Shown piece by piece: positions 3,873 to 37,336 of a stretch of 64,000 nucleotides of DNA. The translations under genes were made by a program, and so were the position numbers. Every line of letters begins with the position of its first letter. The first letter of the stretch is position 1. The notes below the pieces were generated by a model. That model made no database searches, was not told where the DNA came from, and was given only the letters and a program-made list of their open reading frames with translations. This stretch comes from Sphingobacterium daejeonense (GTDB lineage: Bacteria; Bacteroidota; Bacteroidia; Sphingobacteriales; Sphingobacteriaceae): assembly GCF_901472535.1 (NCBI RefSeq), contig NZ_LR590470.1:2976001-3040000 (forward strand), in the 5' to 3' direction.

Positions 3873-6269
3873 TTAAATTAATTTTCTCCGTTTTGCATAC
3901 CATCGAGTCATTAAACTTGTAAATGATATAATCGTAACGGTACTGATAGGCATTAAAATAGCTGCAAACAAGGGTGACATTGTACCTTGAACTGCAAAGC
4001 TTAATCCTACTATATTATAGAGCAATGAAATAACAAAGGACATTTTAATTACTTTCACTGCATCTTTACTGAATTCAAAGAATTTCGGCAATTTATAAAA
4101 TGCCTCACCATCTAAGATAGCATCACAACCCGGTGAAAAATTATTGATATCGTCGGATACCGCTATTCCCAAATCTGCTTTTCTCAAGGCACCGGCATCA
4201 TTAAGGCCATCACCTAACATACATACTTTTTTACCATGGTTCTGCCAATCAGAAATCCTGTTCAATTTCTCTGATGGCGTTTGGTTAAACAGTAAATATG
4301 CTTTTGGAAGGGAAAATCATTCTCAGCGCATCTGCACGGCGCTCATTGTCACCCGAAATAAGGTGCAAATCATAATCTTCAGATTTTAACTCATTGATTA
4401 CTTCATTCAGTCCAGATCGCCAAGATTGTTCTAAAGTAAAATATCCCTTAAGATTATCATTTATCTTTACATAAACGACAGAACCTTCCAGATCTACTTT
4501 ATCTGTATGGACATAAGAAGCACTACCAACACGAATGCTATAATCCAAATAACGTCCTGACTGTCCTCTACCTACCACTTCTTGATATCCCGAGATAGCT
4601 ATCATATCAACATTTCCCAACCATTTCAGAATTTCTCTGCTCAGCGGGTGGTTTGAATTTCTACATAGGGAGGCCAATAAATTGCGTTCCATAGTATTCA
4701 GGTTACCCTCAAAATACATACTAGAAGCATTTGGCGATGATATGGTTCCAGTTTTATCGAAAACAACTGTATCGATTGCCGCCATCTGTTCAATTGCTGC
4801 AGTATTTTTTATATAGAGTTTATTCTTGTCGAAAATACTCAGTGCTGCAGAAAGTGTAAATGGAGAGCTCAATGCCAAGGCACATGGACAAGCAATAATC
4901 AATACTGCGGTAAATGCCCCCCAGGCCTTGTCTGGATTTCCGCCCATCCACCAAAATGCACAAGCAGAAAATGCTATCAAAAGCAAACCTATGGTGAAAT
5001 ATTTACTGATATAACCTACGAAGGTGTCGAATTTCTTCTCATATTGTTTGAAGCTATCATTGTTCCAAAGTTTTGTCAAATAACTTTGGGAGACAGCTTT
5101 CACTACTTCGAGTTCGATGGCCTCCCCCATTTGTCTACCACCAGCATACACAACTTCACCAAGAACTTTTTCTACAGGTTTACTTTCACCTGTTACAAAG
5201 CTGAAGTCTACCGATGCATTTCCTTTTAATAGAATTGCATCCGCAGGGATGATCTCATTGTTTCTGACCAATATTCTATCGCCAACCTGCAGATCTGCAA
5301 TCTGGGTAGGCTTAGCTGATTCATCTTCCAATACGGTGACTGCAACAGGAAAATAGGAGCGATAATCTCTCTCAAATGAAATATGATAATAAGTTCTCTG
5401 TTGTACATATTTTCCGATCAGGATAAAGAAGACCAAACTACATAAGGTATCCATAAACCCTGCTCCTGTCTGTGAAAGAATTTCATATGCAGATCTAAAA
5501 AACAGCACGAAAATCCCCAGTGCCAACGGCACATCTAGGTTGAGCCTTTTCTGTTTAGACTTAACCAAGCGGATTTAAAATAATCTGATGCACTGTACAG
5601 CAATACCGGCAATCCAAACGCGAGGTTCATATATCCAAAGAAATTGGAATATTGGCGTTCAAATTCTGCCATTCCAAAATACTCAGGAAATGAAATCATC
5701 ATGGAGTTGCCAAAACAGAATCCCGCAACTGTGATTTTAGCGATCAATTTGCTCTGATTGATTTTCTTTCCTTCCTTGACTACATCTTGAAGGGTTATCT
5801 TAGGATCATAGCCAATCTTGTGCAGCAATTCCACCAACTCACGCAAGCTGATTTCATTTTTCTTGAAGGTAATGCTCGCCTGCTTCTTCATAAAATCTAC
5901 CTGAGAGGTTTTAACCCCTGGATGTAATTTATAAAGATGCTCCAATAACCAAATACATGAACTGCAATGAATGGCAGGAACATAAAAAGTTATAATTGCC
6001 AATTCATCATCTTGATAATCTACCAATTTGGCAATAATATTAGGTTCATCAAGGTATGACAGATCTTCTTTTTGAGCTTTTTGAGATTTTCCTGGATGAC
6101 TGTTGTACTTATAATAACTAGCCATATTGTTGTCATTCAGTATCTGATATACTGTCTGGCAACCAAGGCAACAAAAACGGTGGTCTTCCAATATATATGC
6201 AGAATCTTCTACAGGATCACCACAGTGATAACAAGAAGTTTTTAATTGTAATTCCCCTTTTGTTGACAT
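3873..6269 (-). CDS. ccoI: CcoI, P1B-type copper-transporting ATPase for cbb3 oxidase, two frameshifts
   Basis: Copper ATPase of the CcoI/FixI type that supplies copper for cbb3 oxidase assembly. Visible in order: an N-terminal cysteine cluster (C13xxC16, C33-C34xxC37), a heavy-metal-associated domain with H-C102-SS-C105, membrane helices, the TGES phosphatase motif (VTGESKPVEK), the CPC metal site (IACPCALALSSP), DKTGT phosphorylation motif and GDGLNDAGAL hinge motif. Two one-base errors split the frame. One T is missing in the run 5554-5556 and one is surplus in 4302-4305; repair gives AWLSLKQKRLNLDVP and PSKAYLLFNQTPSEKLNRI. Repaired length about 800 residues is normal. Lies 11 bases after hemN and 9 bases before ccoS. 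Confidence 0.95.
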
Positions 6270-7651: not shown

Positions 7652-8065
7652 TTAAATTAACCTTGTTTTTGCAATCCATTCTACATTGGCAAGCTTCCCC
7701 TGCACAGCCTCCCACCATCCATTGTGTGAGTTCATGATAGTCTGCTTGGCTACACCTTGCAAAGAAGTTTCGAATGGGACATTTGCAACATGTATTTTCA
7801 ATTCTCCGGCATAATCTAGGTCAATATGTTCAGTGGATCTTGAACGGGTTACGATATTTCGTATACCAATATTGAAGAGTTCAAATAACATTACTCTATC
7901 CAGCACATCCCGGTCGGAAATAATCACAGCTTCCTTTCCAATCGCATAATGCATCGTGCTAAAATTCAACTCGTTAGATATCAGAGTTAAATCATGAACC
8001 TTCCCATTAGCCTTGGCGAGGTGCTCCTTCTCCGGACCCAAAATGTTGTATGCAATCACTCTCAT
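7652..8065 (-). CDS. stand-alone protein like the N-terminal domain of D-2-hydroxyacid (lactate) dehydrogenase
   Basis: A 137-residue protein from the ATG at 8063-8065 (MRVIAYNILGPEKEHLAKAN). An upstream in-frame ATG at 8134 would add 23 unlikely residues. The order of strands and the stretch RNIVTRSRSTEHIDLDYAGEL followed by KIHVANVP resemble the discontinuous substrate domain of D-lactate dehydrogenases, where the equivalent reads like IALRSAGYDNVDL. The Gly-rich NAD-binding Rossmann domain and the catalytic Arg, Glu and His contributed by the rest of the enzyme are absent, so dehydrogenase activity is unlikely. Only 6 bases separate it from hemN. It may be a sensor or regulatory relic; that role is inference. 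Confidence 0.7.
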   Translation of the reverse strand: MRVIAYNILGPEKEHLAKANGKVHDLTLISNELNFSTMHYAIGKEAVIISDRDVLDRVMLFELFNIGIRNIVTRSRSTEHIDLDYAGELKIHVANVPFETSLQGVAKQTIMNSHNGWWEAVQGKLANVEWIAKTRLI

Positions 8066-8090
8066 CCCTAAGTAAAGTAGTTTATAATCC

Positions 8091-8098
8091 CAAAAGTA
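8091..8098 (-). promoter_or_regulatory. -7 promoter box (TACTTTTG) for the hemN-ccoI-ccoS unit
   Basis: On the minus strand TACTTTTG fits the Bacteroidota -7 consensus TAnnTTTG and lies about 25 bases upstream of the chosen ATG at 8065. No TTG is found at the usual -33 spacing. A weak -33 would fit a promoter that depends on an activator, and a suitable palindrome lies further upstream. Confidence 0.5.
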
Positions 8099-8142
8099 GA
8101 GTATAAATGGTGGGTAATGAATGAACTGCATCATGGCAGAAA

Positions 8143-8156
8143 GTGATATAAATCAC
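8143..8156. promoter_or_regulatory. FNR/CRP-type palindromic operator
   Basis: GTGAT-ATAA-ATCAC is a perfect 5-4-5 inverted repeat that resembles both the FNR box (TTGAT-N4-ATCAA) and the CRP core (GTGA-N6-TCAC). Its centre is about 61-62 bases upstream of the start expected from the -7 box at 8091-8098, the spacing of a class I activation site. The downstream genes serve low-oxygen respiration, and a receiver-CRP response regulator is encoded at 14498-15559. Confidence 0.6.
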
Positions 8157-8189
8157 GTTGGGAAGAGATTAGCAAGATGGGTTTGCCAT

Positions 8190-8226
8190 CCATGGCAGAG
8201 GTGCAGTTACTTTTGAGGCGCAGAAG
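8190..8226. repeat. 37-base direct repeat, copy 1
   Basis: Begins CCATGGCAGAGGTGCAGTTA and matches 8343-8379 at all but one base. The mismatch (CAGAAG here, CAAAAG in copy 2) destroys the hairpin that copy 2 can form. Confidence 0.85.
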
Positions 8227-8232
8227 GACGCC

Positions 8233-8256
8233 ATGGTTGGTGTCCCCACCAACCAT
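8233..8256. repeat. hairpin, 10-base perfect arms
   Basis: ATGGTTGGTG (8233-8242) and CACCAACCAT (8247-8256) are exact complements around a 4-base loop, TCCC (GGGA on the minus strand). Compare 8505-8528, which has the same stem with a compensated base-pair change. Confidence 0.85.
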
Positions 8257-8342
8257 CTTCAGCTAAGTGTGCTCAAGTTTTTAGCGTTAGGCAATGCGCT
8301 GGAAAGTCCTAATCTAATTAACACAAATTACTATTAGCCATT

Positions 8343-8383
8343 CCATGGCAGAGGTGCAGTTACTTTTGAGGCGCAAAAGTAAC
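8343..8383. repeat. 37-base direct repeat, copy 2, with hairpin
   Basis: Second copy of the repeat at 8190-8226. Its end forms a perfect hairpin: GTTACTTTTG (8359-8368) pairs with CAAAAGTAAC (8374-8383) around a 5-base loop. Confidence 0.85.
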
Positions 8384-8471
8384 CAAAACGCTTGCTCATT
8401 TAAGGTGGCTTGTCGCGCAATTCCAACGCTCATGGACAAAATGCCTTATTGCCGAGGATGCCGTTCTAATA

Positions 8472-8496
8472 AATTATCTCTTTGGAGGAGATAATT
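8472..8496. repeat. hairpin, 9-base perfect arms
   Basis: AATTATCTC (8472-8480) and GAGATAATT (8488-8496) are exact complements with a 7-base loop. It lies 8 bases before the next hairpin. Confidence 0.8.
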
Positions 8497-8504
8497 GATT
8501 TTCA

Positions 8505-8528
8505 GTGGCTGGTGGAGACACCAGCCAC
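8505..8528. repeat. hairpin, 10-base perfect arms, GAGA loop
   Basis: GTGGCTGGTG (8505-8514) and CACCAGCCAC (8519-8528) pair perfectly around GAGA, a GNRA-type tetraloop. The core GG(T/C)TGGTG...CACCA(A/G)CC is shared with 8233-8256. Confidence 0.85.
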
Positions 8529-8537
8529 GGCGAAAGG

Positions 8538-8645
8538 GCAAGGCCACCCCTCAAATGCCGCGGCATTTTATCCATTCTTCCGCCACTGGAAATGAGCGGA
8601 AGTCGGCTTTGAATTATCATCGACTCTTAGGCTAGGTGGCCTTGC
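8538..8645. repeat. long-range inverted repeat enclosing smaller palindromes
   Basis: GCAAGGCCACC (8538-8548) is the exact complement of GGTGGCCTTGC (8635-8645). Inside lie the 12-base palindrome ATGCCGCGGCAT (8555-8566) and the hairpin arms CTTCCGC (8577-8583) and GCGGAAG (8596-8602). The nested arrangement suggests a folded RNA or a palindromic DNA element. Confidence 0.75.
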
Positions 8646-8834
8646 CTTCGGCTGAGGGGAGACATGCCTTCGGATGGACTTGTGCGTTAGCCTGCGCTTC
8701 GGCTCCGCTCAGCGACCGGCTTCCGGCTTCGTTAAGAGATCGGTGTCTAAAATGTGTAAGTGTTTAAAGTTTAGGTCTGGCGGTGTTTGAAACTATATAG
8801 TCGTCTAAATACTAAATACTCTCTACTAAATACT

Positions 8835-8868
8835 AAAAAAGCTGCTTGGGAAACCAAGCAGCTTTTTT
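8835..8868. terminator. bidirectional rho-independent terminator after clpC
   Basis: GCTGCTTGG (8841-8849) pairs with CCAAGCAGC (8854-8862) around GAAA. Six A's before and six T's after the stem give a U-tract in either direction. It lies just past the clpC stop on the minus strand. Confidence 0.92.
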
Positions 8869-8873
8869 AAATT

Positions 8874-11438
8874 TTAATCTTTTTTCTTGTTGTTCTTGAC
8901 ATCTGATGCCAGTGAAGAGTCATCGTCTTTTTTGGTCTTTAGCGGCCGAGACGACAATTTCTTTTTTGTCATCGTCATAGTCTACCAAGATGGTCTCGCC
9001 GGACTTAAGTTCTCCTTTCAGGATTTCCTCGGCAATTGGATCTTCTAGGTATTTCTGGATGGCACGTTTCAAAGGTCTTGCACCAAAGTTACTGTCATAG
9101 CCTTTTTCAGCAATGTAGTTTTTGGCAGTTTCGGTCAAGTTTATTTTGTGACCTAGTCCTTCGATACGAGCAAACAATGATCTTAAGTTCGATATCAATA
9201 ATCTTGAAGATATGCTCTTTTGTTAATGAGTTGAATACGATTACATCATCGATACGGTTCAAGAATTCTGGAGCGAACGCACGTTTCAATGCTGTTTCGA
9301 TCACTCCTCTTGAATGCGAGTCAGCTTGATTTTCTTTGGCAGCCGTAGTAAATCCTACACCTTGTCCAAATTCTTTCAATTGACGGGCACCAATATTCGA
9401 AGTCATGATAATGATCGTATTCCTAAAGTCTACCTTGCGTCCAAGACTATCTGTTAATTGTCCTTCATCCAAAACTTGTAATAACAAGTTGAATACATCA
9501 GGGTGAGCTTTTTCGATCTCATCCAACAATACAACAGCGTATGGTTTACGGCGTACTTTTTCGGTCAACTGACCACCTTCTTCATAACCAACGTATCCTG
9601 GAGGCGCACCTACTAAACGAGATACGGCAAATTTCTCCATATACTCACTCATGTCGATCTGGATCAATGCATCTTCAGAATCAAACATAAAACGAGCAAG
9701 CTCTTTAGCTAATTCTGTTTTACCCACCCCTGTAGGACCTAGGAATATAAATGATCCAATAGGTTTTTTAGGGTCTTTTAGTCCAGCACGAGTACGTTGA
9801 ATTGCTTTCACCAATTTTTGAACAGCGTCATCTTGACCAATGATTCTTCCTTTCATGGAATCACCCATGTTCAATAATTTCTGGCTGTCAGATTGGCTAA
9901 CACGTTGAACAGGAATACCGGTCATCATTGAAACAACTTCAGCAACATTATCTTCTGTTACTGTATAGCGTTTCGTTTTGGTTTCCGCTTCCCAAGCTGC
10001 TTTTTCTTTTTCAAGTTCTTCGATCAATTTCTTTTCAGTGTCACGAAGTTTAGCTGCTTCTTCATACTTCTGGCTACGAACAACCTTGTTTTTCTCCACT
10101 TTTACTTCTTCGATTTTCTCTTCGATATCGATGATGCTCTGCGGAACATGGATATTGTTCAAGTGTACACGAGATCCTGATTCATCCAAAGCATCGATTG
10201 CTTTATCTGGCAAGAATCTGTCTGTGATATATCTTGTGGTTTAGGGACACACAAGCATCAATAGCTTCAGGAGTATAAGTTACGTTGTGATGTTCTTCAT
10301 ATTTATCTTTGATACGGTTAAGGATTTCGATCGTATCATCGATTGAAGTTGGTTCTACAGTAACTTTTTGGAAACGACGGTCCAAAGCACCGTCTTTCTC
10401 AATATATTGGCGGTACTCATCAAGAGTTGTTGCACCAATACATTGGATTTCTCCACGTGCCAAAGCAGGTTTGAACATGTTTGAAGCATCTAACGAACCA
10501 GATGCACCACCAGCACCTACGATAGTATGTATCTCATCAATAAATAAGATTACATCTGGTGATTTCTCCAATTCATTCATAACTGCTTTCATACGTTCCT
10601 CAAACTGTCCTCTATATTTAGTTCCGGCTACCAATGATGCCAGGTCTAAAGTAACGACACGTTTGTTGAAGAGCACTCTAGAAACTTTTCTTTGGATGAT
10701 TCTTAATGCAAGACCTTCAGCGATTGCTGATTTACCTACACCAGGTTCACCAATTAAAATAGGGTTGTTCTTCTTTCTACGCGAAAGAATCTGCGAAACC
10801 CTTTCGATTTCTTTTTCACGCCCTACGATAGGATCCAATTTTCCTTCTTCTGCGGCTTTAGTCAAGTCTCGTCCGAAGTTATCCAAAACCGGGGTTTTAG
10901 ATTTAATGTCAGATACTTTCTTAGGGGATGAAAATTGTGAATCTTCATCAGCGTATTCATCTTCACCACCAGAAGGGGTGTTAGAAGCTTCATCCGTTAT
11001 GCCAGTAGCATTTTGTTCGACTTCAGATTTGAACACGTTATATGAAACATTGAATTGCTGTAAGATTTGTGATGCGATGTTTTCTTCATCGCGTAGAATC
11101 GCTAACAATAAATGCTCGGTTCCAATAATATCACTTTTAAAGATTTTAGCTTCCAAATAAGTAATTTTCAAGACCTTTTCGGCTTGTTTGGTCAGAGGCA
11201 TGTTACTGATTGGGGATCGTGAAACGGAAGAACCTTTCACAGCATCCTCCACCGACTGGCGTACTGCGCCCATGTCAACGCCGATATTTTTCAATACCTT
11301 AATTGCCACTCCATCGCCCTCACGTATTAATCCCAGCAATAGATGTTCGGTACCGATATAATCGTGACGTAAGCGCAATGCTTCTTCGCGACTATAGGAG
11401 ATAACATCTTTAACTCGGGGTGAAAATTTTGCTTCCAT
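8874..11438 (-). CDS. clpC: ClpC/ClpA-type AAA+ unfoldase, three frameshifts
   Basis: ATP-dependent unfoldase that feeds proteins to ClpP. Domains in order: double Clp-N repeat (residues 1-145, starting MEAKFSPRVKDVISYSREEA), first AAA+ module with Walker A GEPGVGKS and Walker B LFIDEIHT, a UVR-type middle coiled coil, second AAA+ with GPTGVGKTELAK and VVLLDEIEKAH, and the Clp D2-small domain. Three surplus bases break it: a T in the run 10240-10242, a T at 9183-9184, and an A (minus strand) near 8942. Removal gives SLTTRYITDRFLPDKAIDA, DIELRSLFARIEG and a lysine-rich C-terminus ending KNNKKKD at 8874. Repaired length about 850 residues. clpP and clpX lie far away at 60904-62860. Confidence 0.96.
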
Positions 11439-26969: not shown

Positions 26970-28142
26970 ATGAAAAACAACAAGATATTTTTGGGAGGGT
27001 TAGCAATCGCGTTTGCTGGATTAATCAGCTCCTGTTCGACCACAAGTCGTACAGTTTATCGTGATGATGTCTATAATAACCAAGACTCGCGATCTGTTTA
27101 CCAAAGTCCCGATTACTACTATACTGATGGCGAAGAAGAGCAATCTATCGCACAATCAGACTATTATGCCGACGAGTACTCTGACCAAGATTACGTTGAG
27201 GGCGGCGTTGAAGAATTAGAATATGCAAACCGAATCAATAGGTTCTATTATAATACACCAGGAATGATGTATTATGATCCATGGTTTGATCCTTGGTACG
27301 GCTATTCTGGATTTGGCCTAGGTTGGAATTCAGGTTTTGGCTGGTCACTAGGATTTGGTTGGGGCAATCCTTATTATGGCTTAGGCATGGGATGGGGCTA
27401 TCCATACTACGGTTATGGATGGGGATCATCTTACTATGGCTGGGGCAATTACTGGGGACCTAACTCCTACTACAGCTATTGGGGACATCCTTACTACGGT
27501 GGTGGATACTATGGAAATGGATACTACGGAGGAAACTATTATGGCAACAGACGCCAAGCATCTGGAAGAAGTTACTCTTCTAACTATGCTCCAAGATCAA
27601 ATGGAGCTAGAGTAAGCAGAGATGCGAGTGGCAGATTTGTCAATAGCAGATCAGGTGTTGCTTCAGGTAGAAGTGGATCAAGAACTGATGGAACTGTTAA
27701 CAGAACTCCTTCATCAAGATCAGGGTCAAGAACCGATGGAACTATAAATAGAACTCCTTCATCGAGATCAGGATCAAGAACCGATGGAACTATCAACAGA
27801 ACTCCTTCATCAAGATCAGGATCAAGAACTGACGGAACTATCAACAGAACTCCATCATCAAGATCAGGATCAAGATCTAGTGGTACTATCAACAGAACCC
27901 CATCTTCGAGATCGGGATCAAGATCAAGTGGTACTATCAATAGAACTACTCCATCAAGATCATCAGCTCCAAGCACAAGATCTACACCAAGTAGACAATC
28001 TACACCATCACGTTCAAGCGGAAGTTTTGACCGTGGAAGTTCAAGCGGTGGTGGATTCAGCAGAGGAAGCTCTGGCGGTGGATCGTCATCTAGAAGTTCT
28101 GGCGGTGGCGCATCTTCAGGAAGAAGCGGAAGTAGACGTTAA
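26970..28142 (+). CDS. lipoprotein with Gly/Tyr-rich and Ser/Arg tandem-repeat regions
   Basis: The start chosen is 26970, which gives a lipoprotein signal MKNNKIFLGGLAIAFAGLIS ending SSC; an upstream ATG adds 29 improbable residues. The mature protein has an acidic, Tyr-rich segment, then a low-complexity Gly/Tyr/Trp region with YYG, YWG and GWG runs (residues ~90-190), then six 16-residue repeats SRSGSRTDGTINRTPS, and a Ser/Gly/Arg tail ending SGRSGSRR. The architecture is that of a disordered, strongly basic surface or cell-wall-associated protein; no enzyme domain is seen. Function unknown. The Arg/Ser tail could bind polyanions, which is inference. Confidence 0.82.
   Translation: MKNNKIFLGGLAIAFAGLISSCSTTSRTVYRDDVYNNQDSRSVYQSPDYYYTDGEEEQSIAQSDYYADEYSDQDYVEGGVEELEYANRINRFYYNTPGMMYYDPWFDPWYGYSGFGLGWNSGFGWSLGFGWGNPYYGLGMGWGYPYYGYGWGSSYYGWGNYWGPNSYYSYWGHPYYGGGYYGNGYYGGNYYGNRRQASGRSYSSNYAPRSNGARVSRDASGRFVNSRSGVASGRSGSRTDGTVNRTPSSRSGSRTDGTINRTPSSRSGSRTDGTINRTPSSRSGSRTDGTINRTPSSRSGSRSSGTINRTPSSRSGSRSSGTINRTTPSRSSAPSTRSTPSRQSTPSRSSGSFDRGSSSGGGFSRGSSGGGSSSRSSGGGASSGRSGSRR
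27669..27956 (+). repeat. 48-base coding tandem repeat, six units
   Basis: Six head-to-tail units of 48 bases encode SGSRTDGT(I/V)NRTPSSR-type 16-mers. Units 1-4 carry RTDGT, units 5-6 carry RSSGT, so the array has diverged by block. In-frame copy-number change would leave the gene open. Confidence 0.9.
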
Positions 28143-37206: not shown

Positions 37207-37336
37207 CCGAAAGGGGAACTATGATTAATCGTGATTAAATGATGAACATGATTTTAATCGGAAGCCGAAAAGGGAATTATGATTTATCATGATTGAATGA
37301 TGAACATGATTATGATTGTAAGTCGGAATGGGAATT
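37207..37336. repeat. 58-59-base imperfect tandem repeat, about 2.2 copies
   Basis: Unit 1 (37207-37264) begins CCGAAAGGGGAACTATGATT; unit 2 (37265-37323) begins CCGAAAAGGGAATTATGATT; a partial third starts at 37324 with CGGAATGGGAATTT. Both full units contain GATGAACATGATT. Related TGATTAATC tracts lie at 22735-22860. Confidence 0.75.

Follow-up and report, generated by a model that had tools for sequence, protein, structure and literature searches.

A probable mosaic of mobile DNA repeats in an intergenic region of Sphingobacterium daejeonense

The intergenic regions of bacteria contain several kinds of small non-autonomous repeat, such as ERIC sequences (intergenic repeat units), BOX and RUP, which are 100–300 nt long, consist of imperfect palindromes, occur in tens of copies and have no open reading frame. 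Elements derived from IS200/IS605 (PATE-type) are moved as single-stranded DNA and carry subterminal hairpins, with no terminal inverted repeats. The REP palindromes are associated with RAYT transposases, of which subclass 2.6 is found mostly in Bacteroidetes; it has the motifs NH[LIV]H, WQ and YIH[QN]NP with about 82 residues between HuH and Y, and the hairpins flanking its genes are atypical, lacking GT[AG]G, with copies elsewhere (PMC6006769).

The locus described here lies in the 4.73 Mb genome of S. daejeonense (one contig), in a window, the whole stretch of 64,000 nucleotides analysed, that covers positions 2,976,001–3,040,000. Positions 8190–8645 of the window are intergenic, with no ORF of at least 60 amino acids overlapping 8135–8919. 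The start of a gene with a 2-hydroxyacid dehydrogenase domain (7652–8134, minus strand) adjoins the stretch on the left, while on the right clpC, also on the minus strand, ends at 8920 and is followed by a terminator-like hairpin (8834–8869). A search for tRNA genes found none. The region has 145 BLAST matches within its own genome, belonging to two families: a short hairpin repeat, here called R, and a longer element, E (Table 1).

A sequence-only reading of this stretch had claimed a 37-base direct repeat with one mismatch, four perfect hairpins and an 11-base long-range complement, too many to arise by chance. The hairpins (hp1, the central hairpin and the two R hairpins of Table 1) lie exactly where they were placed, the direct repeat proved to be 38 nt long with one mismatch, and the complement extends to 12 nt with 100% identity, this last being probably incidental or a local repeat. 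The hairpin cluster is real: when the 456 nt were shuffled 1000 times with dinucleotides preserved, 990 of the sequences had no such hairpin, 10 had one and none had more, and only 16 such hairpins occur in the entire 64-kb window. The stretch folds with a minimum free energy of −163 kcal/mol (z −4.3). What did not stand was 8190–8645 as the extent of an element, the features being present there while the core of E spans about 8337–8599 and has an R hairpin inside it.

Some further features of the window may be recorded. The clpC gene (8920–11438) is read as three overlapping ORFs in different frames (8920–9198, 9107–10213 and 10203–11438), and because this is a housekeeping gene the two frameshifts suggest indel errors of assembly; a heavy-metal P-type ATPase-like gene (3873–5568), split into two ORFs (3873–4265 and 4285–5568), is perhaps another case. 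Tandem repeats occur at 27675–27962 (48 bp, 6 copies) and 37207–37336 (58 bp, 2.2 copies).

Table 1. Components of the intergenic mosaic, in window coordinates.
Feature	Position	Strand	Remarks
Truncated extra copy of the E 5′ end (hp0/hp1 remnant)	8189..8226	+	97% identity to 8342-8379
R unit 1 (hairpin 8233-8256)	8229..8256	-	10-bp arms; loop TCCC on +, GGGA on -; foot GGC(G) on - (CGCC at 8229-8232)
Variable upstream module	8264..8336	+	Also found with some further copies in this genome (e.g. L003, L010)
E element, interrupted copy	8337..8599	+	Copies, sharp borders, model matches
hp0, GCCAT..ATGGC	8337..8349	+	
hp1, GTTACTTTTG AGGCG CAAAAGTAAC	8359..8383	+	10-bp arms; two-sided change in 8/9 model pairs across genera
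P1 5′ arm, GCTCATTT, AAG bulge, GTGGC	8394..8409	+	Pairs with 8582-8597
P2 5′ arm, ATGGACAAAATGCC	8432..8445	+	Pairs with 8562-8575
Central hairpin, AATTATCTC/GAGATAATT	8472..8496	+	9-bp arms; strong covariation
R unit 2 inside E (hairpin 8505-8528)	8499..8532	+	10-bp arms; loop GAGA, foot GGCG
P2 3′ arm, GGCATTTTATCCAT	8562..8575	+	
P1 3′ arm, GCCAC ... AAATGAGC	8582..8597	+	
12-nt complement of 8537-8548	8635..8646	+	Absent from consensus fold of intact E copies
Further dispersed repeat (query 538-583)	8677..8722	+	About 15 matches elsewhere in genome

The R hairpin has a 10-bp stem, an NRGA loop and a GGC foot. Like a REP, R is a palindrome of 20–40 nt with a high copy number in one genome: there are 134 copies in this genome, compared with 0–1 per genome in 93 congeners. 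Among 72 units the loop is GGGA in 44, GAGA in 14 and AGGA in 8, and the foot is GGC, mostly GGCG, in 66. Stems are perfect in 62/72 though their sequence varies (ATGGTTGGTG, GTGGCAGGTG, GTGGCTGGTG and GTGGTCGGTG are examples), and thus stem changes are compensated. R shows no lagging-strand bias, 35/74 copies being co-directional with the replication fork. Membership of the CGTC-tagged repeat family (PMC3733652) was considered and rejected, CGTC following R in only 4/72 units. The foot GGC is not the canonical GTAG or GGAG of REPs, which excludes only a canonical REP, as subclass 2.6 likewise lacks GT[AG]G (PMC6006769).

One intact gene for a RAYT-type Y1/HUH transposase is present in the genome, at 4,490,727, encoding 181 amino acids. 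Its motifs (NHMH, FWIQ and YIHNNP, with about 85 residues between HuH and Y) suggest a near match to the subclass 2.6 pattern. An R-like hairpin, GTGGTCGGCG-AAGA-CACCGACCAC-GGC, lies about 285 nt upstream of the gene, and none was recognised downstream. Given the motifs, the upstream hairpin with its GGC foot and the published description of subclass 2.6 (PMC6006769), the most likely identity of R is the REP of this RAYT, which would make R a new member of an already known kind. As in other REP, BIME and REPIN systems with a RAYT of this subclass (PMC6006769; Bertels group 5), these are short, genome-specific palindromes in high copy, clustered in intergenic mosaics, in a genome with one RAYT carrying NHxH and YIHNNP and an R-like hairpin upstream; the difference lies in the foot, GGC(G) in place of GTAG or GGAG. 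The earlier suggestion of a REP/BIME-like element finds support in the genome-wide copies, palindromic units, mosaic clusters and RAYT gene. In another genome (G317), two RAYT genes (L330 and L335) have adjoining hairpins of similar type, GGTCGTAGCG..CGCTACGACC and, on both sides in L335, CACGCTCGTT..AACGAGCGTG, which are likely the REPs of those RAYTs.

E is about 216–265 nt long and has sharp borders; in intact copies the distance between hp1 and the end of the P1 3′ arm is about 216 nt, with a further 22–30 nt or so upstream, including hp0. Scoring of fetched loci gave 12 full copies in the S. daejeonense genome, 38 in S. mizutaii (G035) and 24 in the related genome G059. A covariance model built from 30 copies of four species has full-length matches in 63/301 Sphingobacteriaceae genomes and 9/25 genera, a second model gave weaker candidates, several of which are multi-copy, from other families of the class, and E is probably spread over the class Bacteroidia, beyond the nine genera. 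We found no description of E in the open-licence literature, nor its core in viral contigs. As had been supposed, coding is not supported: no E copy in the S. daejeonense genome has an open frame, and those in a few copies from G035 and G059 arise by chance, in different frames. In being intergenic, without an ORF, 100–300 nt long, imperfectly palindromic and present in tens of copies, E resembles ERIC, BOX and RUP, with no apparent sequence kinship; E differs in that a single detailed architecture of several helices is maintained, through compensatory change, in at least nine genera and probably across the class.

Several E copies are themselves rearranged. In the window copy, R unit 2 occupies the place of GAAAGCATCC in intact copies, and in the L002 copy (1515–1754) GAAAGCATCC is directly followed by a different insert of 24 nt that includes GTCCCTGAGCGGAGTCGAAGG, adjacent to the R spot of the window copy; this loop site is a hotspot for small hairpin inserts. 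The truncated unit at the left of the locus resembles the E 5′ hairpin units of G059 at L172:2063–2661, where seven stand in tandem at about 64-nt spacing, the last being part of a full E. At L200:2808–3343 (G035) and L188:2930–3472 (G059), four tandem units of about 160 nt with the E 3′ part lie downstream of a full E. The copies at L040:12341–12428, L044:12394–12480 and L066 (G027) share one truncation point, after AAAATGCC, beyond which comes the common sequence ATAATAGTT.CAC...; this suggests an additional repeat module or a favoured breakpoint. A separate intergenic repeat family of about 500–600 bp, often downstream of E, occurs at L210, L220, L222 and L226 (G035/G059).

The consensus architecture of E comprises hp0, hp1 and one long interrupted hairpin formed by P1, P2 and the central hairpin. 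Compared with shuffles, the L009 copy folds with a z of −5.8 and most others with about −1.7 to −7.5, one reaching only −0.9. In the multi-genus alignment, which is fitted to the model (as are the pair counts made on A2/A3), 94.6% of cells are standard pairs and 43/45 pairs show two-sided changes; in an unfitted alignment of four species the latter figure is 12/45. The covariation score is 0.403, against 0.106 for shuffled alignments and 0.04–0.07 with the partner slid. The unpaired CGCACA boxes and the AAGG/CTG internal loop are also conserved across genera. Across Sphingobacteriaceae it is the shape of E, not its sequence, that is conserved. The refutation that the sequence-only reading had envisaged did not come about: there are many copies in this genome and its relatives, and the arms change in compensation, not freely.

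The distribution of E differs between close relatives. G035 and G059 have eight E loci in common, and in 9/12 orthologous intervals, mostly picked among non-shared loci, E is lacking from the other genome. Mean identity is 0.86–0.92 within genomes and 0.76 between S. daejeonense and G035/G059, as after lineage-specific amplification or conversion. No recurrent gene was found next to E, and a lagging-strand bias was not significant (47/79 co-directional with the fork, p 0.11). The sites compared between genomes differ by several nested repeats, which obscure the exact ends and any target-site duplications.

In the S. daejeonense genome R lies near every E, and in a fixed orientation, all 17 of the R units that lie between roughly −170 and +315 relative to E pointing the same way (the R inside the window copy being left out of this count). 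Outside Sphingobacterium this RAYT is present in 46/48 genomes with E and in 95/185 without (p 1e-9), part of this association being shared phylogeny. Within genus g14 the figures are 16/16 and 16/32 (p 3e-4; genus sizes inferred), and in g15 the association is not significant. In Sphingobacterium itself, 11/15 E-bearing genomes are without this RAYT, among them S. mizutaii with its 38 copies and G059, which has no PF01797 match at all, so E is not simply the substrate of RAYT. No E was found flanking the RAYT genes at the loci examined, except in the cluster of the S. daejeonense genome. In the genomes without it, the enzyme may have been lost after E had spread, another enzyme may have moved E, or the spread may have been enzyme-free. 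E stands apart from REP/RAYT systems, being far longer, with five helices, spanning genera and occurring in genomes without RAYT.

A strong conserved fold with covariation, and unpaired motifs kept across genera, would also be expected if E were a structured RNA with a regulatory or catalytic function, its many copies being coincidental, and a structured RNA was among the initial suggestions for this locus. The type of pairing argues otherwise. In hp1, P1 and P2 of E we counted 9 GT, 11 AC and 833 Watson-Crick pairs, with a single constant G-T position next to an internal loop excluded, whereas SRP RNA, in an ordinary alignment of 30 Sphingobacteriaceae genomes, has 85 GT, 0 AC and 747 Watson-Crick pairs (Fisher p 7e-10 and 8e-18). 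The G-U share is therefore about 1% in E, with no excess over the equally rare A-C, and about 10% in SRP RNA with no A-C; SRP is an imperfect control, being better conserved than E, and G-U is common in its variable pairs. Constraint on an RNA would put G-U above A-C on one strand and show as G-U tolerance on the transcribed strand; E is symmetric, which implies that it is in DNA that the pairing matters or is copied. Relative to the neighbouring genes E is inconstant in orientation, all four arrangements being represented (by 24, 20, 17 and 13 copies), its reverse complement usually folds at least equally well, and Rfam has no match overlapping E or R in the window, the locus or the intact copies. 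The pairing looks to be kept at the DNA level, and we regard a structured RNA as very unlikely.

Two other accounts place E at the DNA level. If E were a MITE derived from an insertion sequence of the DDE type, with inverted repeats at its ends, its size, intergenic dispersal and presence or absence between relatives would fit, and the pairing P1 arms could pass for the inverted repeats. However, the outer left end is not formed by these arms, since hp0 and hp1 lie outside them, the hairpin arms diverge with compensation and are not conserved like binding sites, and no insertion sequence with E ends was found among the neighbours of E; this origin is quite improbable. Alternatively, E and R might owe their spread solely to slippage during replication, to template switching and to hairpin-associated recombination, without any enzyme of their own. 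The 5′ and 3′ units amplified in tandem in relatives, the Watson-Crick purity, as from hairpin-templated correction, and the presence of E in genomes without PF01797 all fit such spread, but single-copy E at dozens of unlinked intergenic sites and the association with RAYT outside Sphingobacterium do not, and we consider it rather unlikely.

The reading we favour, with a probability of roughly 0.6, is that non-autonomous mobile DNA repeats make up an intergenic mosaic at this locus, in which E folds as single-stranded DNA and R is the REP of the RAYT. The E family would fold into hp0, hp1 and the long interrupted hairpin when exposed in single-stranded DNA during replication or repair, and the hairpins would be recognised and moved in trans by a HUH Y1 transposase. 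E would so spread within genomes, its Watson-Crick pairing being held by selection or by a copying process, and here it may travel as cargo between R copies. Both the single-stranded intermediate and the mobilising enzyme, be it RAYT or, for E, another, are what we infer. The subterminal hairpins, DNA-level pairing and apparent lack of terminal inverted repeats recall the PATE-type elements of IS200/IS605; E differs from them in lacking remnants of a transposase or of tnpB, a defined target tetranucleotide and a significant lagging-strand bias. A bolder version, which we hold to be doubtful, is that E is an ancient mobile DNA class throughout Bacteroidia, defined by its hp0–hp1–P1–P2–central hairpin architecture in single-stranded DNA with CGCACA boxes, its shape kept and its sequence free, and that its putative mover is independent of RAYT.

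Elements like E can pass for new structured RNAs in covariation searches. If the favoured reading is right, the count of G-T against A-C pairs, set beside an RNA control, would be a simple test to tell covariation kept in DNA from that kept in RNA. There would then be a large uncatalogued family of shape-conserved mobile DNA in Sphingobacteriaceae, and probably in other Bacteroidia, and what moves REP-like DNA with and without a RAYT would be testable within one genus.
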